Below, piece after piece: positions 8,236-20,357 of a stretch of DNA of 20,357 nt. This stretch comes from a virus. Each line of letters starts with the position of its first letter. Position 1 is the first letter of the stretch. The notes beneath the pieces were generated by a model, which was given only the letters and a program-made list of their open reading frames with translations, had not been told where the DNA came from and made no database searches. The position numbers and the translations under genes are program-made. The stretch lies in the IMG/VR virus record IMGVR_UViG_3300015373_000227, positions 1 through 20,357 of that record. One strand, written 5' to 3'.

Positions 8236-8411
8236 TTTCGTTTTCCTTTCCCTTTGCCTTTGTTACTCAAGCCAGCCTCACTCAAGGCTATCGCTATGGC
8301 TTGCTGCGGATCCGTCACTATCGGACCCCTGCTGCTCCCGCTGTGCAGCTGTCCGTGCTTGAACTTGTGCATTTCCTGCCTTACTCCCTCTTTTCCCGGT
8401 TTCACTGGCAT
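8232..8411 (-). CDS. 59-aa DUF6496-like basic protein, overlapping the 157-aa gene
   Basis: This product begins M-P-V-K-P-G-K-E-G-V and carries H-K-F-K-H-G-Q-L near residue 14 and T-D-P-Q-Q-A-I-A-I-A-L-S-E-A (31-44), followed by a Lys/Gly tail. The pattern 'K-F-K-x-G-x-L ... x-x-P-x-Q-A-x-A-I-A-L-S-E-A' is that of the DUF6496 family of small phage and bacterial proteins of unknown role. ATG 8411 was chosen over upstream in-frame starts because GGAGG lies 7 nt upstream and the family's usual start is here. The first 134 nt overlap the C-terminal end of the 157-aa gene in another frame. The stop overlaps the next start (ATGA). Confidence 0.82.
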   Translation of the reverse strand: MPVKPGKEGVRQEMHKFKHGQLHSGSSRGPIVTDPQQAIAIALSEAGLSNKGKGKGKRK

Positions 8412-8751
8412 GTTTGTCCTCCATTGCCTCTGTATCAAGTAGACGAACTGCATAGCGACTGACACTCGCGCTCAGATTACTGCGCAGAATGCGATCCTTA
8501 ATCATCTCTCGATCACTTTCGAGCAGATTCAAAGGTACTAAGCTCTCATCAGCCTCACTAATCTGTTCAATTAGATCACCTCGACGCATTTTGTCCTTCG
8601 GATTCTTGTCCTCCTGCATTTGCTGATCGAGAACCATGCAGCAAACGTCTCCGAGCGTGACTTTGCGAGGCTTTTCTGGATTACGCTGGTCAAATTCCAG
8701 CAAATCTTCGCCAAGCCTATTTTTGATCGTGGCACCAAACTGAATACGCAT
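8278..8751 (-). CDS. Unknown 157-aa phage protein
   Basis: The protein starts M-R-I-Q-F-G-A-T-I-K-N-R-L-G-E-D-L-L and continues with K-V-T-L-G-D-V-C-C-M-V-L (31-42). Residues 1-107 look like a folded domain, and the last ~45 residues (A, S, Q, G, D-rich) look disordered. That tail is where the DUF6496-like gene is encoded in another frame. The ribosome site is AGGGAG, 8 nt before ATG 8751. It follows the glycine-rich adhesin by 11 nt. No family recognised with confidence; the N-terminal 'x-N-x-x-G-E-x-L ... T-L-G-D-V' pattern occurs in other phage hypothetical proteins. Confidence 0.75.
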   Translation of the reverse strand: MRIQFGATIKNRLGEDLLEFDQRNPEKPRKVTLGDVCCMVLDQQMQEDKNPKDKMRRGDLIEQISEADESLVPLNLLESDREMIKDRILRSNLSASVSRYAVRLLDTEAMEDKHASETGKRGSKAGNAQVQARTAAQREQQGSDSDGSAASHSDSLE

Positions 8752-8762
8752 AGAGATTCTCC

Positions 8763-9794
8763 CTAAAACACCATGAACATCGTCGGGTTGCGATTGAAAC
8801 CACCTGCCGCTGGCGTGTAGGTAATGATAATCAGTCCACCGCCGCCGGTGCCGCCAGCATTCGTAGTCGGGGTTCCGCGCTGAGCGCCGCCGCCACCGCC
8901 GCCACCGCCGTAATTTCCACCATTGCCGCCGTTTACGTTCGTCGAGACGACGTTGCTCAGACTTCCGCCGCCACCGCCACCTCCGCCACCAGCGCCGTGC
9001 GTGCTGTCGAACGCCTGATCACCTGCGCCATCTCCGCCCTTTGAGCTGTTGGTGCCGGACGTGTTGCTTCCTGCCCCGCCACCACCGCCGCCGCTATCCG
9101 CCGTCGCGTTGCCGCCGTTCGAACCTGCGGCGCCTCCAGTGCCGTGGCCGGTGCCGCCGGTGCCGTCGCCACCATTCGCGCCCGCTGTGGTTGCTGTGGT
9201 CCCGCCTGCGGTACTAGTGCCGCCATTCGATCCGCCGCCTCCAGCTCCCCCGCAGTTGCCGGCCGCGCCAGTCGCGCCGCCAGCCTTTCCGCCTCCGGTA
9301 GGACCTGCGGCACCACCGCCGCCTGCGCCACCGAAACCTGCAGCCGCCGTCGATCCTGCACCGCCGTTGCCGCCCGTTTGTGACGCGGTGGTGTAAGTAA
9401 CCGGAGACGGCGTGCCATTGGTAATGCCAGCGCCACCGACGCCACCAGTTGTCGATGTGCCGCTGTTCTGTCCCGCGAGGCCGCAGTTGGCCTCATGCGT
9501 GTTGGTGGTGGTCGTCCCCTGCCAAAATGTCGAGTTGGCATGCGTATTGGTGACGACCGAGTTCGATGCCTTGATCTGGAACGCCGTGGTTGCGCCCAGC
9601 GCGCCCGAGGAATAAGTCAGCTTGTAATAACCACCACCGCCACCGCCGCAGCCACAGCGGCTGTTGATGCCAGTTGATCCCGCGCCGCCATTGCCGCCGC
9701 AGCCGACGAGCTCGACAGTATGCCCCGCATCCGTCCAATCGCCTGGCTTCGACCACGGAGAAGTGTTAGCACTGGTGAGAAATACGGCTGTCAT
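8763..9794 (-). CDS. Glycine-rich tail-tip / adhesin protein
   Basis: This 343-aa protein is about 40% glycine. The N-terminus has W-S-K-P-G-D-W-T-D-A-G-H-T-V-E-L-V-G-C-G (14-33), a pattern typical of glycine-rich surface or tail adhesin domains. Poly-Gly tracts with S, T, A and N follow, and the C-terminus has G-G-G-G-L-I-I-I-T-Y-T-P. Such domains fold as packed polyglycine II helices in phage receptor-binding adhesins such as T-even gp38, so a host-recognition role is likely. It lies directly downstream of the giant fibre. ATG 9794 falls inside the end of the 83-aa gene (29-nt overlap) with only a weak AGG upstream. The GC-rich repeats create long spurious Pro-rich frames on the other strand. 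Confidence 0.8.
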   Translation of the reverse strand: MTAVFLTSANTSPWSKPGDWTDAGHTVELVGCGGNGGAGSTGINSRCGCGGGGGGYYKLTYSSGALGATTAFQIKASNSVVTNTHANSTFWQGTTTTNTHEANCGLAGQNSGTSTTGGVGGAGITNGTPSPVTYTTASQTGGNGGAGSTAAAGFGGAGGGGAAGPTGGGKAGGATGAAGNCGGAGGGGSNGGTSTAGGTTATTAGANGGDGTGGTGHGTGGAAGSNGGNATADSGGGGGGAGSNTSGTNSSKGGDGAGDQAFDSTHGAGGGGGGGGGSLSNVVSTNVNGGNGGNYGGGGGGGGAQRGTPTTNAGGTGGGGLIIITYTPAAGGFNRNPTMFMVF

Positions 9795-10017
9795 GCTCGA
9801 CCTGCTTACGTGCGTACTCTTGTGCCATGCGAATGACGTTCGGAATCATCCCCCAATCGACAGGCTCTACGACCGTCAAACCGGGTACGATATAGTATCG
9901 CTCACCCTCCTCTACATGCGCGCGCACCGCCATCACATCATCAGTAACCACGGTGCGAACTGCACCGTACCGATTAACCACACCAGCAACGATCGCCGCT
10001 CTGTGTGACTCACACAT
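9766..10017 (-). CDS. Unknown 83-aa protein with palindrome in its first codons
   Basis: ATG 10017 overlaps the fibre stop as TGATG, supporting this start by translational coupling. The palindrome (10002-10016) forms the next codons, so the product begins M-C-E-S-H-R-A-A-I-V-A-G. The body contains E-G-E-R-Y-Y-I-V-P-G-L-T-V-V-E-P-V-D-W-G (37-56), which looks like a small beta fold, then a helix with A-Q-E-Y-A-R-K-Q. It lies between the fibre and the glycine-rich adhesin, and may be a fibre-associated or chaperone-type protein. No family was recognised. An in-frame GTG after the palindrome could be the true start. Confidence 0.65.
   Translation of the reverse strand: MCESHRAAIVAGVVNRYGAVRTVVTDDVMAVRAHVEEGERYYIVPGLTVVEPVDWGMIPNVIRMAQEYARKQVEHDSRISHQC
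10002..10016. repeat. Junction palindrome 7
   Basis: TGTGTGACTCACACA, perfect. It lies one base after the fibre stop and forms the first codons of the 83-aa gene (C-E-S-H after the Met). Confidence 0.9.
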
Positions 10018-13000
10018 CAGTAGCCCTTTACGTAGCTAACCACGTCCCAGCGCGACGCAGCCCCGTTGTAGATCGCGCCGATGTAGTCGGTCAGGCCAGA
10101 AGTCGTCGCCGTGAGCGCGGTGATGTCGGTGCCGAAACGGAAGGCGCCGGCCGAGCCGGTGGTGAGCGAGAGCGTACGTGCGCCACCGGAGGCGTTGTGA
10201 CGAATCACGATCTTCTGCCCATCAGTCGCGTTAGTCGGCGCGCTGATAGTACGGTTTCCAGCGGCGACAAGATCAAACACATTTCCTTTCGAGGCATCGA
10301 GCGCGACGCTTGCACCGTCAGTCAGAGTAAACGGGTTCTCGCACAACGCGACTTTGGGGTTCACCTGATTGCCATTGACGCGGAGCGCCTGCACTTGAGT
10401 GCCGCCAATCGCAGGCCAGAACTCGACGGTTCCTTGCTCGCTGCCAGCCGTCGCGTTGACGATGCGCGTCAATATCTCCGCATATACGGTGTCGGCAGCA
10501 GCGCTATTCTTCCCCTGTATCACCCAATCACTAACGAAGTCGTCTACCGCAGGCGAAGCGCTGTTGTGCTTGGTGTAGAGGCGCGGACCTCTCGTGCCAG
10601 GATCGGTGCTCGATAAAATGATGTCGCCGACCGTCCCTTTGATCCGAAACTTTTCGTCGGCGGCTGCACCGCCCGTCATCAACTTGGCGACTAGATCGAA
10701 GTTCTCGGCGGCGGCGGTCACGAAAGTTGCCGACGCTTCAATCGCTGCACCAATCTCAAAATTGCTCGCAGATGTCTCTACATTGAACTCCACACCGACG
10801 CCTATACCCACCGCAGGCGTCCCTGTCGTGGTATGCGTTAGTCTAAATACGCGAGTAACACCGTTATTTACCGCATCATCTACTCCAAGCGCAAGCATAC
10901 CCGTCGAGTGACTCAAAATGACGTCGCCGTTATTGAAATTTATGACCCCACCGGAGGCCAAGAACAGATCAGACCACGACAAAGTTGCCTGGCCGAGCGC
11001 CCCAGTATCATTAGTCGCTGGATGGAAATCGCCAGCGTCCTCCAATATCGCGACGCTATCCTGAACCGAGTTTCCACCCACCCCATTCCAGCGCACCATC
11101 GCATTATCGGTCGATGAGCCAATAGTTGGGATACCTCCACTTGCCCCAGGCAAACTTGACCAGTTGATCTTGATTAGTTGATCCGTCCCACCGTCATAGG
11201 CGAGCAAAAAGTCGCCTGTAGCCGGACTTGCCTCCGTCGTAATGTCAGCAAGAGCCGCAAGCTTCATCGTGCCAGCACTATCATCCCAGAATAGGATACG
11301 ATCTAGGTTCGGATCAGTGAGTGCAGCACCTGTCCCTCCTCTCGCAAGCGATAACGTGCCTGTCCACCCAAGCGTCAACGACGCCGCAACCAACAAAGCC
11401 GTCGCTGGCGTACCTCCAAGTGTCAGCGTGACGTTCGTGTCATCCGTTTTCGTGAGCGCAGCACCACTTCCCACGTCCGCCGCCGTAATCACGTCCCATG
11501 CAGGAGCGGCAGAGACTGCCCCTGTGCCAGTCTGTCTCAGCCACCTCTTCGCGTTGACAATACTGCCCGCAAGCTTCGATAGAGCGTTCGTCGCCGATGA
11601 ATAGAGTATGTCACCTAGCGTCCAAGTCGTCTGCGCTGTGCCGCCGTGCGTGGCGTCAATTGCTGAAGCGCTCCAAGTTCCTGTTGCAACCGTTCCGAGA
11701 GTAGTAATCGTAGCTTGTCCAACGTAAGCAGCATCAATGTCAATCGTAGGATTGCCAGCAACACCGCTCCCGTTGGTGACTGATATGCGATTCGTAGTGC
11801 CCGTGATAGTTCGTCCAGTAAACGTATCCGCAGCTGTCTGAGTGAGTAATCCATTTGTATTATATGCTGCGAGAGCTGTAAGAGTAGCGTCAAGCGGTTG
11901 ACCAGTTGCGGCTGTAAGGACATTCGAGCCTCCGACCTGAAGCGTACCGCCAGCAACATTCAAGTTGCCAGCGCTATGCGTGATCGTCATGTTACCATTA
12001 TTGAAGTTAATAACCCCGCCTGAGGCCAGAAATAGATCACTCCACATCAATGTAGTCGTGCCAAGTGCCGTACCGTCGTTAGCATCTGGCGTTAATGCGC
12101 TTCCCTCCAGACGCATCTTTGCAGTCAACGTACCCGCTATAGCAACGGACCATGTTAGTCTAGCGTCCTCCGACGTGCTTACTACATCCGTCGCAACCCA
12201 CGTTAATCGGCCAAATTCAACCTGTGTTCCCACACTATTCTTAAGCAAATAACTCACATAGGCTTCATCATTCGCCGCAGCAGTCGTCCTCTGTCCTTCA
12301 AACTGTGCAACCTGAAGGCTCGCAGCATTGGTCGTGTTGACCGCCCTCAATGGCTCATTCGCCGCACCTGTTCCGAGTGTCGCAGTCACTCCCGCAGCGT
12401 TCCATGTCCCCGTTGTGATCGTTCCAAGCGTTGTAATGCTCGTCTGCCCAACATATGCGGCATCAATATCTATGGTAGGGTTGCCACCGACGCCACTTCC
12501 ATTCGTCACAGCAATGCGATTAGTAGTCCCGATAATTGTCCTTCCTGTGAACGTATCTGCCGCTGTTTGCGTCACCAATCCGTTCGTATTGTAGGCTGCA
12601 AGAGCCGTTAATGTTGCATCAAGCGGCTGCCCCGTCGCCGTCGTCAGAATAGTCACACCTTCAATCGAAGCTACACCCGCAGAAACGCGAGCCAGCGTCG
12701 TATCTGTCGCCGCGCCTAGTTCTATCGTGCCAGTCGTAAATGAGCCGGTAATACCGACCGAAAGAGCATCCGTCGTCGTGTCAAAAGTGAGCGCAGTGTC
12801 CCCTTCGATGGTCGTCGAGGATGTCCAGACGGCAATTTGATTATCTACTGGCGTACCGACGTTACTGACATTGCCTCCACCGCTCGGCACAGCAAAAGTA
12901 CCATCCGCACGGAGAAAAGTCGTGGTTCCTCCACCCGAAGCTGGAACCAAGCCCTTCAAGCCGGACGTAAAAACGTCCAATATGGCAGTTGCTTGCGTTC

Positions 13001-15620
13001 CAGTGAGATCAGTAGGATCGCCAGTCCCCGCCACCACAGCCCGGCCCTTAATTGTGCTCTGAGCCATGTTGGCGAGCTTAGTATTATCAACAGCGTCATT
13101 CGTAATGCCTCCAGTTGCGACAGTCGAGAACGTAAGCGCAGTCCCTCCAGTATTCACAACAAGAACTTGATCCGCAGTCCCTTGAATACTCGCCAAATCG
13201 GCCGTCGCATTGCCCGTAACCCCTAATACTGACCTAGCAAGCCCCTGAGCGATGTTCGCAAAGGCAATATCAGTACCATTCCACACCCCAGACGTGATCG
13301 TCCCTAGTGTGGTGATCGTTGCTTGCCCAACATATGCAGCATCTATATCAATTGTGGGGTTGCCAGCGACACCACTGCCATTCGTGACACTAATACGGCT
13401 CGCAGTTCCTGTAATTGCCCTTCCAGTGAAGGTATCTGCCGCCGTCTGTGTCAGCAATCCGTTCGTATTGAACGCTGCAAGAGCCGTCAACGTCGCATCA
13501 AGAGGCTGTCCCGTCCCCGTTGTGAGGAGCGTGACACCCTCAACCGCAATCACGCCTGCGCTTACTCTAGAAATCGTCGTATCTGTCGCCGCGCCAAGCT
13601 CAATCGTACCCGTGGTGAACTTACCAGTTACACCTGTGCTCAGCGAATCGGTTGTCGTGTCAAAAGTAAGTGCTGTATCACCCTCAATAGTGGTAGCAGT
13701 TGTCCAAACTGCAATTTGATTATCGACAGGAGTGCCTACATTGCTGACATTACCCCCACCAGCGGGCACGTTCCAAGTCCCATCTGCCCTAAGGAAGTTT
13801 GTCGTACCACCACCACTTGCCGGAGCAAGACCTTTTAGGCCAGACGTGAAAACATCAAGGAGTGTAGTCGCCTGAGTGCCAGTCAACTCCTCAGTATCGC
13901 CCGCACCAGCCGTAATCCTTCCAAGAAATCGACCCGTCACACTCACATTTTGGATTTTGGCATAAGTAATTTGATCATCGCTCACGTCCGCCGTTACAAT
14001 CGGCGAAGCGAGCAAAGTTCCAGACGCATCTGTGTGAATCACACCAGTTCCGTAAGCGCCACCAGGGAACACCACAGTGCCATCATTTAAGACCTTTAGA
14101 CGGGTTACTGGCGAAGCTGTACCATCCTGTGAAACTCTAAATTCCAGGCGACCTGGCATATCTCCTGAAGCGCCCGGCGTACCATCAACTGCCGCAGTAA
14201 TGTTAGCTAAACGATCAAAGCTAGTTCCATTGCTCCCAAAGAAAACGAGCTGACCAGCAACGTCATTGTTTTGAACTATAGTGTGACTGCCAAGCGTAGC
14301 ATTACGAGATTTACCCAACGCAACTATTGGACCTAATGCATCAGCACTAAAGGCCCCAGCAATAAGAGCATTCTCAACATTAGTATCAACAGAGATTTGA
14401 ATCCTAGATGTCTGTCCTATCCCAAGGCCAAAGCCAAGAAACTCTCTACCATTATCATCAACGAACACACTGCTATTCTGGATCACCTTTCCCGTCGTGC
14501 CATCAAAGCGCGTGATCGCATTGTCCGTAGCACTAGCAGGACCTACAACATCACCACCACCCCCAGGCACAGCCCACGACCCATCCCCTCTCAGGAACGT
14601 CGTCGTGAGTCCATTCGAGCCAGGGACGACACCTTGAGCAGTCGTTGACGTGGAGAACAAACTCAATAACGAAGTCGCCTGCGCTCCAGTCAACTCCTCA
14701 ATGTCACCCGCACCTGCCGTGATCCTCCCAAGGAATCGCGCCGTCACACTCACGTTCTGGATCTTAGCGTATGTGACTTGATCGTTACTTATATCAGCTG
14801 TCACAATCGGTGAGCTAACCAAATCACCGCTCGCGCTCGTGCTGTGAATAATTCCAACGCCATAAGCGCCACCAGGGAATGATATAGTACCATCCGGTAT
14901 GATCTTCAGGCGCGTTACTGGTGAGGCTGTACCATCTGGCGAGACTCTAAAGTCCAAGCGCCCCGGCATATCCCCAGAAGCGCCAGGTGTGCCTTGCACC
15001 ACAGCGGTAATGTTAGCTACACGATCAAAGCCAGTCCCATTGCTCCCGAAGAAAACAATCTGACCAGCAACGTCTTGATCCTGAACTATGACATGAGTAC
15101 CAAGAGTAGGACTACGAGATTTACCTAATGCAATTATCGGACCTAATGCGTCGTTGCTAAAGGCCCCAGCAGTAATAGCGTTCTCAATATTAGAATCAAC
15201 ACAGATTTGAACTCTAGCTGTCTGCCCTATCCCAAGGCCAAAGTTGAAAAACGTCCTATCACTATCATCAATGAGTACGGCACTATTTTGGATTATTGTC
15301 CCTGTCGCACCATCCCATCTTACGATAGCATTGTCAGTGCTAGAGCCCGGACCTGTTATAGTGCCTCCGCCCGAAGCCGTGAAGAACTCCAGTCCAGTAG
15401 CTCCGGCATTAACCCTAACACCCTTAAGAGCCTGACCTACATAGCTGCTCGGAACGTCGATCAGGTCTGTGAACGCCGAGGCACCACCACCACTACCTGC
15501 CAAGAGAGAGCCTGCCGTAATCGCATGGTCAAACCCTCCCTTGGCAAGATAGAAAAGCTCATCGCCCGCAAGGGCGGTGAGCAAGGGGAGCTCAGTGACT
15601 CTCGTTGACTTACGAGACAT
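10017..15620 (-). CDS. Giant repeat-built tail fibre / receptor-binding protein (1867 aa)
   Basis: The protein is Thr/Ala/Gly/Ser-rich with beta-repeat character. An N-terminal part (about 1-80) is probably virion-attaching. Repeats follow: two ~270-aa units beginning G-P-x-S/A-x-T-D-N-A-I, each with F-L-G-R-I-T-A-G-A-G-D and T-x-F-L-R-x-D-G-x-W. Two ~293-aa units then carry V-D-N-Q-I-A-V-W, and a partial third unit keeps P-L-D-A-T-L-T-A-L-A-A-Y-N. Two W-S-D-L-F-L-A-S-G-G-V-I-N-F blocks and an A-R-G-G-T-G motif come later. The C-terminus (N-R-T-I-S-A-P-T ... D-Y-I-G-A-I-Y-N) resembles other phage fibre ends. ATG 15620, immediately after the palindrome, is preferred to TTG 15656. No Shine-Dalgarno is seen. 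Confidence 0.85.
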   Translation of the reverse strand: MSRKSTRVTELPLLTALAGDELFYLAKGGFDHAITAGSLLAGSGGGASAFTDLIDVPSSYVGQALKGVRVNAGATGLEFFTASGGGTITGPGSSTDNAIVRWDGATGTIIQNSAVLIDDSDRTFFNFGLGIGQTARVQICVDSNIENAITAGAFSNDALGPIIALGKSRSPTLGTHVIVQDQDVAGQIVFFGSNGTGFDRVANITAVVQGTPGASGDMPGRLDFRVSPDGTASPVTRLKIIPDGTISFPGGAYGVGIIHSTSASGDLVSSPIVTADISNDQVTYAKIQNVSVTARFLGRITAGAGDIEELTGAQATSLLSLFSTSTTAQGVVPGSNGLTTTFLRGDGSWAVPGGGGDVVGPASATDNAITRFDGTTGKVIQNSSVFVDDNGREFLGFGLGIGQTSRIQISVDTNVENALIAGAFSADALGPIVALGKSRNATLGSHTIVQNNDVAGQLVFFGSNGTSFDRLANITAAVDGTPGASGDMPGRLEFRVSQDGTASPVTRLKVLNDGTVVFPGGAYGTGVIHTDASGTLLASPIVTADVSDDQITYAKIQNVSVTGRFLGRITAGAGDTEELTGTQATTLLDVFTSGLKGLAPASGGGTTNFLRADGTWNVPAGGGNVSNVGTPVDNQIAVWTTATTIEGDTALTFDTTTDSLSTGVTGKFTTGTIELGAATDTTISRVSAGVIAVEGVTLLTTGTGQPLDATLTALAAFNTNGLLTQTAADTFTGRAITGTASRISVTNGSGVAGNPTIDIDAAYVGQATITTLGTITSGVWNGTDIAFANIAQGLARSVLGVTGNATADLASIQGTADQVLVVNTGGTALTFSTVATGGITNDAVDNTKLANMAQSTIKGRAVVAGTGDPTDLTGTQATAILDVFTSGLKGLVPASGGGTTTFLRADGTFAVPSGGGNVSNVGTPVDNQIAVWTSSTTIEGDTALTFDTTTDALSVGITGSFTTGTIELGAATDTTLARVSAGVASIEGVTILTTATGQPLDATLTALAAYNTNGLVTQTAADTFTGRTIIGTTNRIAVTNGSGVGGNPTIDIDAAYVGQTSITTLGTITTGTWNAAGVTATLGTGAANEPLRAVNTTNAASLQVAQFEGQRTTAAANDEAYVSYLLKNSVGTQVEFGRLTWVATDVVSTSEDARLTWSVAIAGTLTAKMRLEGSALTPDANDGTALGTTTLMWSDLFLASGGVINFNNGNMTITHSAGNLNVAGGTLQVGGSNVLTAATGQPLDATLTALAAYNTNGLLTQTAADTFTGRTITGTTNRISVTNGSGVAGNPTIDIDAAYVGQATITTLGTVATGTWSASAIDATHGGTAQTTWTLGDILYSSATNALSKLAGSIVNAKRWLRQTGTGAVSAAPAWDVITAADVGSGAALTKTDDTNVTLTLGGTPATALLVAASLTLGWTGTLSLARGGTGAALTDPNLDRILFWDDSAGTMKLAALADITTEASPATGDFLLAYDGGTDQLIKINWSSLPGASGGIPTIGSSTDNAMVRWNGVGGNSVQDSVAILEDAGDFHPATNDTGALGQATLSWSDLFLASGGVINFNNGDVILSHSTGMLALGVDDAVNNGVTRVFRLTHTTTGTPAVGIGVGVEFNVETSASNFEIGAAIEASATFVTAAAENFDLVAKLMTGGAAADEKFRIKGTVGDIILSSTDPGTRGPRLYTKHNSASPAVDDFVSDWVIQGKNSAAADTVYAEILTRIVNATAGSEQGTVEFWPAIGGTQVQALRVNGNQVNPKVALCENPFTLTDGASVALDASKGNVFDLVAAGNRTISAPTNATDGQKIVIRHNASGGARTLSLTTGSAGAFRFGTDITALTATTSGLTDYIGAIYNGAASRWDVVSYVKGY
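11660..13745 (-). repeat. Fibre long repeat B, two full and one partial copy
   Basis: The sequence around 13711 recurs at about 12832 (879 bp, 293 codons). The block P-L-D-A-T-L-T-A-L-A through Y-V-G-Q-x-x-I-T-T-L-G-T appears again near 11670-11930. Synonymous differences between copies show the duplications are not brand new. Confidence 0.8.
13750..15360 (-). repeat. Fibre long repeat A, two copies of ~810 bp
   Basis: Equivalent points at about 15353 and 14543 are 810 bp (270 codons) apart. Both copies share G-L-G-I-G-Q-T, G-A-F-S-x-D-A-L-G-P-I, F-F-G-S-N-G-T and F-L-G-R-I-T-A-G-A-G-D. A shortened relic (S-S-T-D-N-A-M-V-R-W) recurs near 11100. Confidence 0.8.
14031..14045. repeat. Palindrome 8, inside fibre gene
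   Basis: TGTGTGAATCACACC, 14 of 15. It encodes G-V-I-H-T in the second long repeat. The first repeat copy (I-I-H-S) has lost or never had the site. Confidence 0.85.
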
Positions 15621-15635
15621 TGTGTGATTCACACA
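15621..15635. repeat. Junction palindrome 9
   Basis: TGTGTGATTCACACA, perfect. It contains the stop TGA of the 68-aa gene and ends immediately before the fibre ATG (15620). Confidence 0.9.
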
Positions 15636-15835
15636 TCGCTGAAGATTTGGCCCCAACGCCCCGCCACCACCTCAAGTCCTCGGTAGCGGATGCCAGTATC
15701 CAACGCCAAAGCAAGCTCGCCGGAGTACAGAGGTGTCGCAGCCAACACGTTAGCGGTGGTCGCGAACGCCCTATTAGTCGAGCGATACTTCAGCGCTATC
15801 GGGTTATTACCCGACAGGTCAGGAACAGTCGCCAT
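15629..15835 (-). CDS. 68-aa fibre-associated / virion protein
   Basis: This short protein contains T-P-L-Y-S-G-E-L-A-L-A-L-D-T-G-I-R-Y-R-G (34-53), a 'GELAL-D-T-x-x-x-Y-x-G' pattern found at the start of many phage fibre and tropism proteins, where it forms a small beta attachment module. Here it is a separate gene just before the giant fibre, so it may be a split fibre N-terminus or adaptor. The ribosome site upstream of ATG 15835 is AAGGAGGTGATCC, complementary to the full 16S 3' end, implying strong initiation. The stop TGA (15629-15631) lies inside the palindrome at 15621-15635. Confidence 0.8.
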   Translation of the reverse strand: MATVPDLSGNNPIALKYRSTNRAFATTANVLAATPLYSGELALALDTGIRYRGLEVVAGRWGQIFSDV

Positions 15836-15836
15836 T

Positions 15837-15849
15837 GGATCACCTCCTT
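15837..15849 (-). promoter_or_regulatory. Full-length Shine-Dalgarno of the 68-aa gene
   Basis: Minus-strand AAGGAGGTGATCC is complementary to 13 nt of the 16S rRNA 3' end, one base before ATG 15835. It decides the start of that gene. Confidence 0.75.
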
Positions 15850-16135
15850 ACGCCGGATCGCAGTACACACCACTGTTGCGAAGCGCCTGATATTCCTCAT
15901 ACGTGAGGTAAATCTGATCGCCCGCTTTGTAGTCCTTATGCGCCACATTCGCGTCTTGCTTCATGACATAAATGCCTTTTCCCTCATGGGAAGCAGCGGT
16001 ATCCTCGGGAGGTTCCGGCTTCTCGACGTCAGCCATCTTCTCCTCATACTCCTTGGATGCGGCTTCCCGCTCCTCGTCATGCTCCTCCTCGTAAACCTCG
16101 CCTGTCTCTTCGCTGTGCTTCTTGCGCTTAGTCAT
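15848..16135 (-). CDS. 95-aa protein, acidic N-terminus and DUF7210-like C-terminus
   Basis: Residues 1-45 are Lys/Glu-rich and likely disordered or helical. Residues 52-95 form a compact segment (G-K-G-I-Y-V-M-K ... H-K-D-Y-K-A-G-D-Q-I-Y-L-T-Y-E-E-Y-Q-A-L-R-N-S-G-V). That pattern of 'h.Y.aGD.I.LteeE...L...GV' resembles DUF7210-type small phage proteins, often found near head or tail genes; the function is unknown. ATG 16135 overlaps the stop of the 45-aa gene as ATGA, with GGAGG about 7 nt upstream. Its TAA overlaps the strong ribosome site of the following gene. Confidence 0.75.
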   Translation of the reverse strand: MTKRKKHSEETGEVYEEEHDEEREAASKEYEEKMADVEKPEPPEDTAASHEGKGIYVMKQDANVAHKDYKAGDQIYLTYEEYQALRNSGVYCDPA

Positions 16136-16269
16136 CTCTGCCTCCGTTGCTCTTCTTCAGATTTCCTTCTCTCTTCCCGCTCCTTCTCATCCTTACGAGG
16201 CTGTGTCGGATCAGGAAACTCCTCCTCTTCACCTTCACTCGGGTCCGTTGGACTACGTTGCCTTCCCAT
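16132..16269 (-). CDS. 45-aa highly charged protein, unknown
   Basis: The product begins M-G-R-Q-R-S-P-T-D-P-S-E-G and is composed almost wholly of E, R, K, Q and P. The second half is probably a single charged helix. It is supported as a gene by ATG 16269 with GGAG 7 nt upstream, a one-base gap to the previous stop (TAG at 16271-16273), and an ATGA overlap with the next gene. It has no cysteine, aromatic core or membrane segment, so a folded enzyme is unlikely. Confidence 0.6.
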   Translation of the reverse strand: MGRQRSPTDPSEGEEEEFPDPTQPRKDEKEREERRKSEEEQRRQR

Positions 16270-16270
16270 T

Positions 16271-16852
16271 CTAAACTCCATCTATTTTTACTTCCTGGTC
16301 ACCCTTACCGATGATTACGATCCGCAGATCGTTTCGTGCTGCAACAGCGGCATTCTTTTTATCTCCGTACCCACCCGCGTTCATCAGGTACGTGCTTCCT
16401 CTGAGCCTGTTCCTCTCCTCTTTTCCAGCAAGTGCTATGCTGGCAATCTCCGTTAAGGCATCATGACTGTACGCAGCAATCCTCGCGTTAATCATGTCAC
16501 TGTTGATGTTAATGAACTCATTGGTGACTGCCTCGAAGCACTCGGCATAAGCGGGGTGATCCCTTAGCTCTTTGAGTTGCTTCGCTGTAATCCTAAGCGT
16601 ATCTGCAATCTCGCGGTCACCAAGTCCAAGAGTCGTGTACATAAAAACACATGCGATGCCGTTTAATGTCGGCACTGGTGCTGGCAAATCTTTTAGTGTC
16701 CGTTTCTTAGACGGCTTGTAATCCTTATACTCCATCTTTGGCAGAGTCATATCGACTCCGCCATTGATGCGATCCGGTGGCACAATAGTGCCATCAGCCT
16801 TCACGAAGGGATCGCCCCAACGTGCAAGTGGCTTAGCCAGAAGCTTTCCCAC
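16271..16852 (-). CDS. HTH protein, candidate terminase small subunit
   Basis: This 193-aa protein has a central helix-turn-helix-like segment: L-G-L-G-D-R-E-I-A-D-T-L-R-I-T-A-K-Q-L-K (75-94), then H-P-A-Y-A-E-C-F-E-A. It continues into helical repeats (110-160) that could oligomerise. The HTH followed by 'L-x-x-x-P-A-Y' is a pattern seen in phage small terminases, which bind DNA at pac or cos and hand it to the large subunit. The N-terminus (1-60) is Lys/Pro-rich. GTG 16852 overlaps the previous stop as TAGTG with no strong Shine-Dalgarno; the next in-frame ATG is residue 35. If correct, it is encoded almost 9 kb upstream of the large subunit, which is unusual. A regulatory DNA-binding role is the main alternative. 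Confidence 0.55.
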   Translation of the reverse strand: MGKLLAKPLARWGDPFVKADGTIVPPDRINGGVDMTLPKMEYKDYKPSKKRTLKDLPAPVPTLNGIACVFMYTTLGLGDREIADTLRITAKQLKELRDHPAYAECFEAVTNEFININSDMINARIAAYSHDALTEIASIALAGKEERNRLRGSTYLMNAGGYGDKKNAAVAARNDLRIVIIGKGDQEVKIDGV

Positions 16853-17241
16853 TATCTTGTTCCCAACGGATTACGGTCAAGGTTCACTGGTGGGTTAGGT
16901 CCAAGCGTCGTCCGCGTCGTCAGCGTGAGGTAATCCGTATTGAACTCAGTCACGTCCGCAGCCGTCGTCGCTCTATTAACCAGAGCTATCGTCTCGATAG
17001 CTCTCGGCCCACCAAGCTCTTGAGATGGAGCAACCCTCGTAATGTTCTTCGTAGCCGTGACGCCAGGAGCCGCACCAAGCAAAGCAGCCACGATTGCCCT
17101 ATTACCAAGCTGTCCTCTGACTCCCAACTCCTGAGCCACTGAACGTCGCTGAGCCTGCTCACCGCTAATGCTCGCAAGACTGTTGACCCCATTCGTGGGC
17201 CAGAAACCTCCGAGAACTGTAGCTACTGCGAGTGTCGTCAT
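16852..17241 (-). CDS. Unknown 129-aa protein, first gene of the late operon
   Basis: The first minus-strand gene after the control region. It is Ala/Thr/Val/Asn-rich and begins M-T-T-L-A-V-A-T-V-L-G-G-F-W-P-T-N-G-V-N. The N-terminal hydrophobic stretch is interrupted and not a clear signal peptide. The low-Lys, Thr/Asn-rich composition is like a virion or decoration protein, but no family was recognised. ATG 17241 has AGGAGG about 7 nt upstream, preceded by a stem-loop in the leader (17259-17292). The stop TAG overlaps the next GTG start. Confidence 0.75.
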   Translation of the reverse strand: MTTLAVATVLGGFWPTNGVNSLASISGEQAQRRSVAQELGVRGQLGNRAIVAALLGAAPGVTATKNITRVAPSQELGGPRAIETIALVNRATTAADVTEFNTDYLTLTTRTTLGPNPPVNLDRNPLGTR

Positions 17242-17444: not shown

Positions 17445-17473
17445 TTTGTAACATATCTACAGATCGTAGTCAA
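17445..17473 (-). promoter_or_regulatory. Candidate sigma70-type late promoter (minus strand)
   Basis: Minus-strand TTGACT (17473-17468), a 17-bp spacer and TACAAA (17450-17445) would give a start near 17438, about 195 nt before the first late gene. The -10 matches consensus at only 4 of 6 positions. The -35 box overlaps a TGACTACG motif like those clustered at 18234-18544, so the same factor might control it. It is the best candidate for driving the whole late block. Confidence 0.4.
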
Positions 17474-17564: not shown

Positions 17565-17593
17565 TTGACAAGGGATTGCTTTTAGTGTATTAT
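17565..17593 (+). promoter_or_regulatory. Sigma70-type promoter P1 (plus strand)
   Basis: TTGACA (17565-17570), a 17-bp spacer, and TATTAT (17588-17593) is near-consensus. The start would be near 17600. No gene with a ribosome site starts before 17911, so P1 makes either an untranslated RNA or a longer leader for the 31-aa peptide. It shares the wider context CTTGACAAGG with P2. Confidence 0.65.
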
Positions 17594-17696
17594 CATGATA
17601 GGCTGCCAGGGTGGTTGAGGGGGGGTACATATACAGCGGTCCCGGCTCACTGGCGCGCTTTGGCGCGCGCGACAGAAGATTGCAACCCATTTTGCC

Positions 17697-17711
17697 CGTG
17701 TGATTCACACA
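17697..17711. repeat. Control-region palindrome 11
   Basis: CGTGTGATTCACACA, 14 of 15, ending 10 bp before the P2 -35 box. Confidence 0.88.
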
Positions 17712-17721
17712 AAAATACCAC

Positions 17722-17750
17722 TTGACAAGGTTTTCTCGCCGTGCTACTGT
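17722..17750 (+). promoter_or_regulatory. Sigma70-type promoter P2 (plus strand)
   Basis: TTGACA (17722-17727), a 17-bp spacer, and TACTGT (17745-17750) would start transcription near 17757. A palindrome copy (17697-17711) ends 10 bp before the -35 box, a position suited to regulation. Downstream lies an intrinsic terminator within ~65 nt, then the 31-aa membrane peptide gene. Confidence 0.6.
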
Positions 17751-17781
17751 ACTTATGTTACCGCGAGTGCATTGGTACTTA

Positions 17782-17822
17782 GTGGGTGTGCGGTATTCAC
17801 CTCCCGTAACACCCACCTTTTT
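17782..17822 (+). terminator. Intrinsic terminator / attenuator downstream of P2
   Basis: GTGGGTGT (17782-17789) pairs with ACACCCAC (17809-17816). An inner GCGG/CCGT pairing extends the stem to about 12 bp with one bulge. It is followed by CTTTTT (17817-17822). This is a good rho-independent terminator. It sits between P2 and the 31-aa gene, so P2 transcripts would mostly end as a ~65-nt RNA unless read through. Confidence 0.7.
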
Positions 17823-17859
17823 CCAGGCACTCTGTGCTCCAGCGCCCGTTGGAGACTCG

Positions 17860-17893
17860 CCCCCGGTCCTTGGCGCCCTCCGAGGATCGGGGG
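17860..17893 (+). other. Strong GC-rich hairpin before the 31-aa gene
   Basis: CCCCCGGTCCTTGG (17860-17873) pairs with 17880-17893 over 14 bp (two G-U pairs) around a 6-nt loop. It ends about 10 nt before the GGTGA ribosome site of the membrane peptide. A smaller hairpin (CTCCA / TGGAG, 17837-17854) precedes it. Together with the terminator this makes a structured leader. Confidence 0.55.
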
Positions 17894-17910
17894 GATTCAT
17901 TTGGTGAAGC

Positions 17911-18006
17911 ATGGCTGACGAATCCGAACATAGGTTCATCATTGCCGCTATCATCCTAATCGCGATCGTAAGCATTATCACAGTCCTCTCTCACCTCTTG
18001 CCCTAA
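17911..18006 (+). CDS. 31-aa single-span membrane peptide
   Basis: This tiny gene encodes a charged N-terminus M-A-D-E-S-E-H-R followed by one hydrophobic helix (residues 9-27, mostly I, A, V and L), ending S-H-L-L-P. The ribosome site is GGTGA (17903-17907), 3 nt before ATG, similar to the (AGA)GGTGA sites of the other plus-strand genes here. It lies downstream of P2 and its attenuator and is followed by a 9-bp hairpin. Short single-span peptides in phage control regions can be superinfection-exclusion, lysis-inhibition or toxin-type proteins. Which of these applies cannot be read from the sequence, and it may be unrelated to any of them. Confidence 0.6.
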   Translation: MADESEHRFIIAAIILIAIVSIITVLSHLLP

Positions 18007-18017
18007 AACCTCCCCTC

Positions 18018-18055
18018 AGCCGAAGTCCTCGCGCCGCAGGCACGGAACTTCGGCT
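18018..18055 (+). terminator. Hairpin after 31-aa gene, terminator-like
   Basis: AGCCGAAGT (18018-18026) and ACTTCGGCT (18047-18055) are perfect 9-bp arms around a 20-nt loop. The following TCGTCTTCGT is only moderately T-rich, so termination efficiency is doubtful. It lies 11 nt after the stop codon. Confidence 0.4.
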
Positions 18056-18111
18056 TCGTCTTCGTCCGGGTGCTGTTCTCGGCGAATGAAGACCCGAATC
18101 TTTATGCTCCC

Positions 18112-18126
18112 TGTGTGACTCACACA
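18112..18126. repeat. Control-region palindrome 12
   Basis: TGTGTGACTCACACA, perfect, between the 31-aa gene's 3' hairpin and the iteron cluster. Confidence 0.88.
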
Positions 18127-18317
18127 AGTCCAGGGCTTTCATGAACAGCATTAACCTCAGTTTCAATATCAATTCCAATAACATTATCCGATCACGATCC
18201 GTCTCGCTTCGCTCGTTTGCCGTTGATGCGGAATGTAGTCAACTACAGTTTGTGATCGGGGGGGACTACGAGGGGTGGTCATGCTACGGAATGAAGCTAC
18301 AGAGGGCGCGAAAACGC

Positions 18318-18332
18318 TGTGTGCCTCACACA
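18318..18332. repeat. Control-region palindrome 13, degenerate
   Basis: TGTGTGCCTCACACA, one central mismatch, in the -35 to spacer region of the TATAAT at 18339. Confidence 0.75.
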
Positions 18333-18338
18333 AATCCG

Positions 18339-18344
18339 TATAAT
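18339..18344 (+). promoter_or_regulatory. Consensus TATAAT with palindrome at the -35 side
   Basis: A perfect -10 hexamer has no TTGACA 16-18 bp upstream. The degenerate palindrome TGTGTGCCTCACACA (18318-18332) covers that region, and a TGACTACG repeat starts at the last base of the hexamer. This would suit a promoter that needs, or is blocked by, the palindrome-binding protein. Confidence 0.4.
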
Positions 18345-18564
18345 GACTACGATACCGAGGCACCCGTACGCGAATCGCGCGGATGGATGACCACATTACG
18401 TATTCAAGTGACCACAATGACATCATTCATATCGTAGTCAAAACACATAGAGTAGTCGGAGATTGACTACAGCGGAGAACGTGACCCGGAAGCGTAGTTG
18501 TTCCGTGCCTACGGCGCAGGAATGACTACGCGATGATGACTACAGAGCGCATGCTCGTGGAACG

Positions 18565-18640
18565 AATGAAATGGAAATGTCAATAGAAATATTTTCGCAA
18601 AATGCAACCAAGAGTTGATTGACAAAAATCCACAACCAGG
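18565..18640. other. A+T-rich stretch beside the iteron cluster
   Basis: This roughly 75-bp stretch is visibly A-rich (runs such as GAAATATTTTC and GACAAAAATCC), unlike the surrounding ~50-55% GC sequence. It lies about 20 bp after the last TGACTAC repeat and could be a duplex-unwinding element if the cluster is an origin. Confidence 0.4.
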
Positions 18641-18646
18641 CGCAAG

Positions 18647-18814
18647 GTGGAGGATCACATTCGATATGAGGTGAAGAGATACAGAGAACAGACGGCCATT
18701 AGGCCAGCGAGAACAGGAACTCGCACGGGACACCCGATGACGGTGGCGCGAATGCCATGCCAACCACGGCTTACCCACAAATTCCCACAAACCGAAGCGG
18801 GTAACCCTTGCTAA
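18647..18814 (+). CDS. Possible 55-aa small protein, weak
   Basis: A GTG-started frame encodes V/M-E-D-H-I-R-Y-E-V-K-R-Y-R-E-Q-T-A followed by a basic Pro/Thr/Arg-rich tail, ending at TAA 18812-18814. The first 17 residues look like a charged helix. There is only a weak AGG upstream and no promoter. It may be a chance frame; no family was recognised. Confidence 0.2.
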   Translation: MEDHIRYEVKRYREQTAIRPARTGTRTGHPMTVARMPCQPRLTHKFPQTEAGNPC

Positions 18815-18882
18815 CCGTATGCGGACCATGCGTGCCATTGCACTGTGAGCCATCCCCGCGATAGGCCAAGGGAGAAAAATCT

Positions 18883-19943: not shown

Positions 19944-20357
19944 ATGGCAGCGAAGCAGGCTGTTAAGACGGCAAAAGCGCCGACACCTAACGCCGTAAAG
20001 GCCAAGGGTGCGGCGAATATGCCGAAGGAAGACGCCGCGACTAGTGCGGCGCTTATCCCGGTGGTGAACCCGAAAGCCTTGTCGGTTGACGTAGGCCCGA
20101 AGGTTCTCCAGACACTCGCCGCATACTCGAGAGATGAGCGGCAAGTGCGGGAATTGCAGCAGAGTATGGAGGCAAAGCGCTATGACGCGCTAAGCAATCT
20201 TACGGCTGCGATCGTGAAGGCTGCGACGGCGGACAAGACCATCAAGCTTGATGTTATTTTCGCCGGATCGAAGCTCGACAAAATCAAGCTCAATAACCAG
20301 TTGGGAATTGCGCTTGGTTTCAAGTCCGTGATGACCGTTGGCAAGGCCGGAGCGGAA
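19944..20357 (+). CDS. Unknown phage protein, partial at right edge
   Basis: The first 138 residues are visible and the frame is still open at the window end. The N-terminus (1-35) is Ala/Lys/Pro-rich, histone-tail-like and probably disordered. A helical part with A-A-Y-S-R-D-E-R-Q-V-R-E-L-Q-Q follows (residues 66-80), then a segment with K-L-D-V-I-F-A-G-S-K-L-D-K-I-K. GGAG lies 8 nt before ATG 19944. It has its own promoter P3 and a palindrome in its leader. The family was not recognised; the basic tail could bind DNA. Confidence 0.7.
   Translation, partial: MAAKQAVKTAKAPTPNAVKAKGAANMPKEDAATSAALIPVVNPKALSVDVGPKVLQTLAAYSRDERQVRELQQSMEAKRYDALSNLTAAIVKAATADKTIKLDVIFAGSKLDKIKLNNQLGIALGFKSVMTVGKAGAE

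Follow-up and report, generated by a model that had tools for sequence, protein, structure and literature searches.

The question raised by this locus is whether a cluster of TGACTAC repeats between the late and early genes of an uncultured soil phage marks a replication origin, as an earlier note on this DNA had proposed, or serves some other purpose. The window, ie the whole stretch of DNA analysed, is a complete IMG/VR contig of 20,357 bp, and belongs to a family of uncultured soil phages whose genomes measure about 44-46 kb. Positions 1-17241 hold the head, tail and terminase genes in leftward orientation, small early genes run rightward from 18914, and about 1.7 kb of non-coding DNA separates the two arms. 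The cluster sits in this divergent intergenic region, between the gene starts at 17241 and 18914, and is non-coding, as the note had stated. The early arm of the virus was extended with the overlapping contigs L014 and L016. Cultured relatives are distant, sharing no more than about 20-27% identity in terminase, capsid and polymerase, and a capsid-based search matched no prophage and no host genome. Elsewhere in the intergenic DNA, a non-coding block at 17812-17903 aligns to L005 with 75% identity and carries a strong GC-rich stem (CCCCCGGTCC...GGATCGGGGG), possibly a terminator or a structured leader; a second conserved non-coding block, at 18772-18877, lies 5' of the first early gene and is 71% identical to L123 (TAACCGTRTGCGGACCATG).

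The repeats themselves were examined against dinucleotide shuffles.

18234-18543, no strand: TGACTAC cluster, six exact and seven one-mismatch copies

The exact copies are at 18235 (-), 18344 (+), 18434 (-), 18464 (+), 18523 (+) and 18537 (+), and those with one mismatch are at 18263, 18275, 18388, 18400, 18409, 18452 and 18506. Over 18234-18550, six exact copies compare with 0.06 expected, and 13 copies with no more than one mismatch compare with 1.18 expected; neither count was reached in any of 4000 shuffles, and no 7-mer of any sequence occurred six times in that interval in the shuffles. The description of the cluster as far above chance, with copies in both orientations, is therefore borne out. 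The exceptional property is the clustering, the whole-window total of seven being only mildly unusual (shuffle mean 1.97, with 1 of 100 shuffles reaching 7). Outside the cluster, the known sequence of this virus holds one further copy, at 17466-17472 (-), which is a chance-level number. The copies are of mixed orientation with an irregular spacing of 9-69 bp, and Tandem Repeats Finder detected no tandem array at the cluster, ie the regularly spaced direct repeats of an iteron-type origin are not found here.

A search for the same cluster, which had been suggested as a check, located it only in near-identical contigs of the same virus (L002, L014 and L015) and in none of the other relatives, of which more than 80 were searched. 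At the same spot the relatives carry other over-represented words, namely TAGGA/ATAGGA, GACTA, TCAAACA, or 11-bp tandem arrays. In 15 modules, the interval between the two hairpins described below contains 72 copies of TAGGA against 11.7 expected, and 36 of GACTA against 11.2 expected. Since TGACTAC is not conserved and other words take its place in relatives, it is regarded as one lineage's version of a fast-changing set of repeats. Such turnover could also be passive, the spacer in each lineage filling with short repeats that have no function, and the variation in the repeated word, together with the simple arrays of 11-bp units in L130 and L131, agrees with this. However, most lineages share related words of the GACTA or TAGGAC kind, and passive expansion would account for the repeats only, leaving the conserved hairpin pair, the central element and the strand-composition switch unexplained. 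We consider it somewhat unlikely for the repeats; it is, in any case, compatible with the surrounding module being an origin. The TGACTAC copies probably serve as initiator sites or as arms of hairpins, and the copy at 18523 does form the 3' arm of the right hairpin.

The conserved feature is the module around the repeats, with its hairpin pair, and the 7-mer itself is lineage-specific. The module has a conserved anatomy and contains the point at which the genome switches strand composition. Its parts in the window are as follows.

18018-18055, minus strand: left hairpin, facing the late genes; stem AGCCGAAGT/ACTTCGGCT, loop core CCGTGCCTGCGGCG at 18032-18045, z -3.15
18112-18126: palindrome TGTGTGACTCACACA, 80 bp from the left hairpin core
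18137-18187: the contig's lowest-stability 50-bp stretch, lying between left hairpin and repeats; may be an unwinding element
18203-18215, plus strand: central element CTCGCTTCGCTCG, with the skew switch immediately to its right
18258-18269, plus strand: G-tract followed by ACTAC (GGGGGGGACTAC)
18318-18332: palindrome copy within the repeat cluster
18392-18471: least stable 80-bp stretch of the contig, within the repeat cluster
18492-18531, plus strand: right hairpin, facing the early genes; stem GCGTAGTTGTTCC/GGAATGACTACGC, loop core CCGTGCCTACGGCG at 18503-18516, z -4.37
about 18559-18640: A-rich stretch, 65% A+T, a value matched by 0.06% of 81-bp windows

The general order is left hairpin, palindrome, CTCGCTTCGCTCG or C-tract, easily melted DNA, G-tract, lineage-specific short repeats and right hairpin. 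The central element, or a close variant, is present in several relatives and is followed by a C-tract; this tract is usual, not universal, at the centre of the module in relatives, and a run of CCCCCC or GGGGGG was found in all 15 of the modules compared. Both of the least stable stretches fall between the hairpins. The claim that A-rich DNA adjoins the cluster was thus confirmed at 18560-18640, and easily melted A+T-rich tracts, as expected beside iteron-type repeats, begin at 18137 and 18392 as well. There is no perfect DnaA box within the module, a point against its being an origin.

The hairpins share a conserved loop core, CCGTGCCT-N(1-2)-CGGCG, on stems whose sequence differs in almost every phage. 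The stems also differ between the two hairpins of one phage, yet remain complementary, ie they covary. Thirty-one distinct helices of about 11-18 Watson-Crick pairs exceed the 99.5% random-pairing threshold. In the genomes searched, the loop core with a stem is confined to this region, where there is normally one copy pointing left and one pointing right. The two point outward, are 400-630 bp apart, and enclose a segment with its own short repeats. No match near threshold was found in Rfam.

A divergent pair of hairpins is also what two outgoing transcripts might require, and the main rival to an origin is a hub for transcription control. The TGACTAC copies would then be cooperative operators, and the hairpins would be RNA elements of the nut or put kind, with which two divergent leader transcripts begin and which would load an antitermination complex. 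The hairpins do fold well as RNA, and the right hairpin of the window is fully paired only if two tandem G.U pairs are allowed. Among the 31 helices, however, wobble pairs are rare (four G.U and one A.C, counted on ungapped helices, the count on gapped arms being noisy), which would be odd for a stem selected as RNA and leans towards a hairpin acting at the DNA level. Palindrome copies lie near both hairpins, and one of them, at 18318-18332, is followed 6 bp past its end by a perfect TATAAT (18339-18344), as would suit a site of transcription control. Against this, the relatives have almost no outward sigma-70-like promoter between the hairpins (promoters of this type only, at 10 of 12 matches); their strong promoters are placed to the left of the module. 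Two candidates in the window are likewise to the left.

17445-17473, minus strand: candidate late promoter, TTGACT-17-TACAAA, overlapped by the stray TGACTAC at 17466
17565-17593, plus strand: strong rightward sigma-70-like promoter, TTGACA-17-TATTAT

Leftward sigma-70-like promoters occur at the same place in many relatives, and rightward ones similar to that at 17565 occur in several. The stray copy in the late promoter (placed at 17465 in the earlier note) had been taken to link the same factor to late transcription. That link is not sustained, as chance alone would place about two copies in the window and, in L005 and L007, the promoters homologous to 17445-17473 have a plain TTGACA.

The strand composition of the genomes bears on both readings. 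In each of the 16 genomes that have both hairpins, the minimum of the cumulative GC skew falls between them. L140 was excluded from this set because its hairpin assignment was doubtful, and L126, L127, L133, L099 and L128 have one or both hairpins missing from the available sequence. A C- or G-tract alone could generate a local minimum, so the test was repeated with the tracts masked, and the result was again 16 of 16. In the window, the unmasked minimum is at 18221 and the masked one at 18446. The minimum of the whole genome was inside the module in both complete relatives examined (46,145 bp and 44,631 bp); it is at 14080 in G005, with hairpins at about 13925 and 14328, and at 9725 in G037, with hairpins at about 9390 and 9896. 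The GC-skew analysis that had been proposed as a check on the origin thus gave a positive answer, the switch staying with the module throughout.

Gene direction also flips near the module, and the skew minimum alone could therefore reflect transcription. Two observations help to separate the two causes. Firstly, past the strong rightward promoter of the window the skew remains negative for some 600 bp (17593-18221) and changes sign to positive only once within the module, which places the switch away from the divergent promoters. Secondly, L134 and L136 have the module displaced by about 1.3 kb, away from the late genes, and the skew minimum has moved along with it; the right hairpin core is at 3688 and 3690, respectively, and the minimum is inside the module. 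Two rightward genes to the left of the displaced module have G:C counts of 14:45 and 3:9 at fourfold sites, compared with G005, where 10 of the 10 co-oriented genes tested, early and late, have more G than C at such sites. This reversal favours replication over transcription as the cause. The evidence is good but thin, because L134 and L136 are one closely related pair and a rightward gene to the right of the displaced module, L136:4043-4462, shows no excess of G at its fourfold sites (12:18). Nearly everywhere else, skew is confounded with gene direction. A hub for transcription control also leaves unexplained why the skew switch follows the module, and taken with the rarity of wobble pairs and the position of the promoters this makes it, in our judgement, improbable. 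The rightward genes L136:2050-2811 and L136:2827-3054 (present also in L134, and reversed relative to the window) lie between the late genes and the module, and one of them has a signal-peptide-like start, MKKLLLTTAALLALAGEPVKA.

Packaging is a third candidate function, since only one small gene separates the region from the gene for the terminase small subunit downstream of it, a usual place for a cos or pac site, and the small subunit could bind the repeats; a packaging site would not be expected to show an opposed pair of hairpins or to coincide with a genome-wide skew switch, however, and the assembled contigs of relatives end at scattered points around here and not at one, so that a packaging start is very improbable.

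Taken together, the sequence comparisons make it likely that the TGACTAC cluster belongs to a bidirectional replication origin, of which it would form the central-right part and in which the hairpins would act on the lagging-strand template. The original proposal of an origin with an unwinding element holds as to its location, and is strengthened by the conserved divergent hairpins, the skew switch in 16 of 16 genomes, the easily melted DNA and the family-wide excess of short repeats between the hairpins; the part of it that called the repeats iterons in the strict sense does not hold. A mechanism can be suggested. A phage initiator, perhaps the 317-amino-acid early product considered below, would bind the short repeats, which are TGACTAC here and TAGGAC or GACTA-type words in relatives, and once bound it may open the easily melted centre. 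As the forks leave, each conserved-loop hairpin would be exposed on the strand that is becoming the lagging-strand template of the approaching fork. The exposed hairpin may then fold and direct primer synthesis or the loading of helicase or primase, one hairpin per direction. Some of the TGACTAC array would, in this lineage, double as the arms of such a hairpin.

The proposed initiator would be encoded next to the module, by the first large early gene.

19944-20357, plus strand: 5' part of the first large early gene, corresponding to L014:1771-2724 in the overlapping contig L014, 317 amino acids

Its product is kept across the family, with 36-56% identity to the L014 copy. It matched no known family in Pfam, PHROGs or PDB sequences, and its AlphaFold model, of moderate quality (pLDDT 72.7, pTM 0.66), gave no convincing fold match among solved or viral structures. 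The protein is a candidate initiator or regulator. In favour of an origin, the family encodes replication proteins of its own, namely UDG-PolA, a Dda-like helicase, Sak4 and the DUF669 single-strand binding protein; the early arm of the relative G005 comprises an exonuclease, the Sak4 annealing protein, the DUF669 protein, the Dda-like helicase and the fusion of UDG to DNA polymerase A. Scanning early proteins of G005 and of this virus revealed no recognisable initiator or primase family, which counts against the origin. The absence of a recognisable primase fits a need for hairpin sites, and is no proof of it. L142:11691-14279 encodes a fusion of uracil-DNA glycosylase with a DNA polymerase of family A.

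Origins in which hairpins recruit a primase are known from single-stranded DNA phages of the G4/alpha3 type, whose origins are recognised by the host DnaG. The likeness is that stem-loops in single-stranded DNA could recruit the host primase where the phage has none; here, in contrast, the phage is double-stranded and has two opposed elements. The oriV of the IncQ plasmid RSF1010, with ssiA and ssiB, similarly has one hairpin element per strand at the origin (PMC4434180), and the divergent hairpins of the module show that arrangement with a conserved sequence in the loop. The RSF1010 ssi system is defined by its RepB'-type primase (PMC4434180), whereas no such primase was recognised here, and in the module 400-630 bp separate the hairpins, whose stem is longer and unconserved while the loop is conserved. 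The lambdoid origin, ori-lambda with its O protein iterons, resembles the module in having short repeats, like initiator sites, by an A+T-rich tract and near early replication genes (PMC7466680). The lambda iterons are located inside the O gene (PMC7466680); the repeats here are 7-mers in both orientations, irregularly spaced, between operons and framed by two conserved-loop hairpins. With its repeats and candidate unwinding element the module resembles a phage origin, yet it falls outside the strict definition of iterons.

A small literature search found no earlier description of the module. We tentatively put forward, as a possibility that we rate below the origin itself, that it represents a new type of origin for double-stranded DNA phages, in which two divergent conserved-loop hairpins with drifting stems may fold on the displaced strands as sites of primer synthesis or replisome loading for both forks, alongside fast-turnover initiator repeats and no recognisable primase. 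Only a minority of tailed phages, and hardly any uncultured ones, have a mapped origin. A 14-base loop motif combined with covarying stems is enough to recognise the module, which narrows the predicted origin down to a few hundred bases in an entire family of soil phages. Should the hairpins prime both forks, they would be the counterpart, in a double-stranded DNA phage, of the hairpin-primed origins of plasmids and single-stranded DNA phages.

The palindrome that accompanies the hairpins is distributed well beyond the module. It is a perfect 15-bp palindrome, TGTGTGANTCACACA, and 15 copies are present in the window, where about one would be expected even at three mismatches.

15 bp each, at 321, 1319, 2184, 4526, 6046, 8049, 10002, 14031, 15621, 17346, 17697, 18112, 18318, 18883 and 19907: palindrome copies

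The copies are mostly at gene junctions, directly 5' of start codons, and are found also at intergenic promoters and beside hairpins. Most relatives have the palindrome (about 38 copies in G005), and in nearly all of them a copy lies 49-93 bp from the left hairpin. Within one genome the half-sites change in step (TGTTTGANTCAAACA; TGTTTGA in other members). The start-associated sequences of cluster K mycobacteriophages, with their inverted repeats, are similar in being a near-identical short element just 5' of many start codons (PMC3203893). They differ from the element described here, which is one perfect 15-bp palindrome, found also at intergenic promoters and hairpins, with half-sites that change in step. 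The palindrome is previously unreported and merits a study of its own. At many sites in L144 (relative G037) there are asymmetric variants of it, TGTGTGANTCAAACA, and their strand orientation is often constant whatever the direction of the neighbouring genes.
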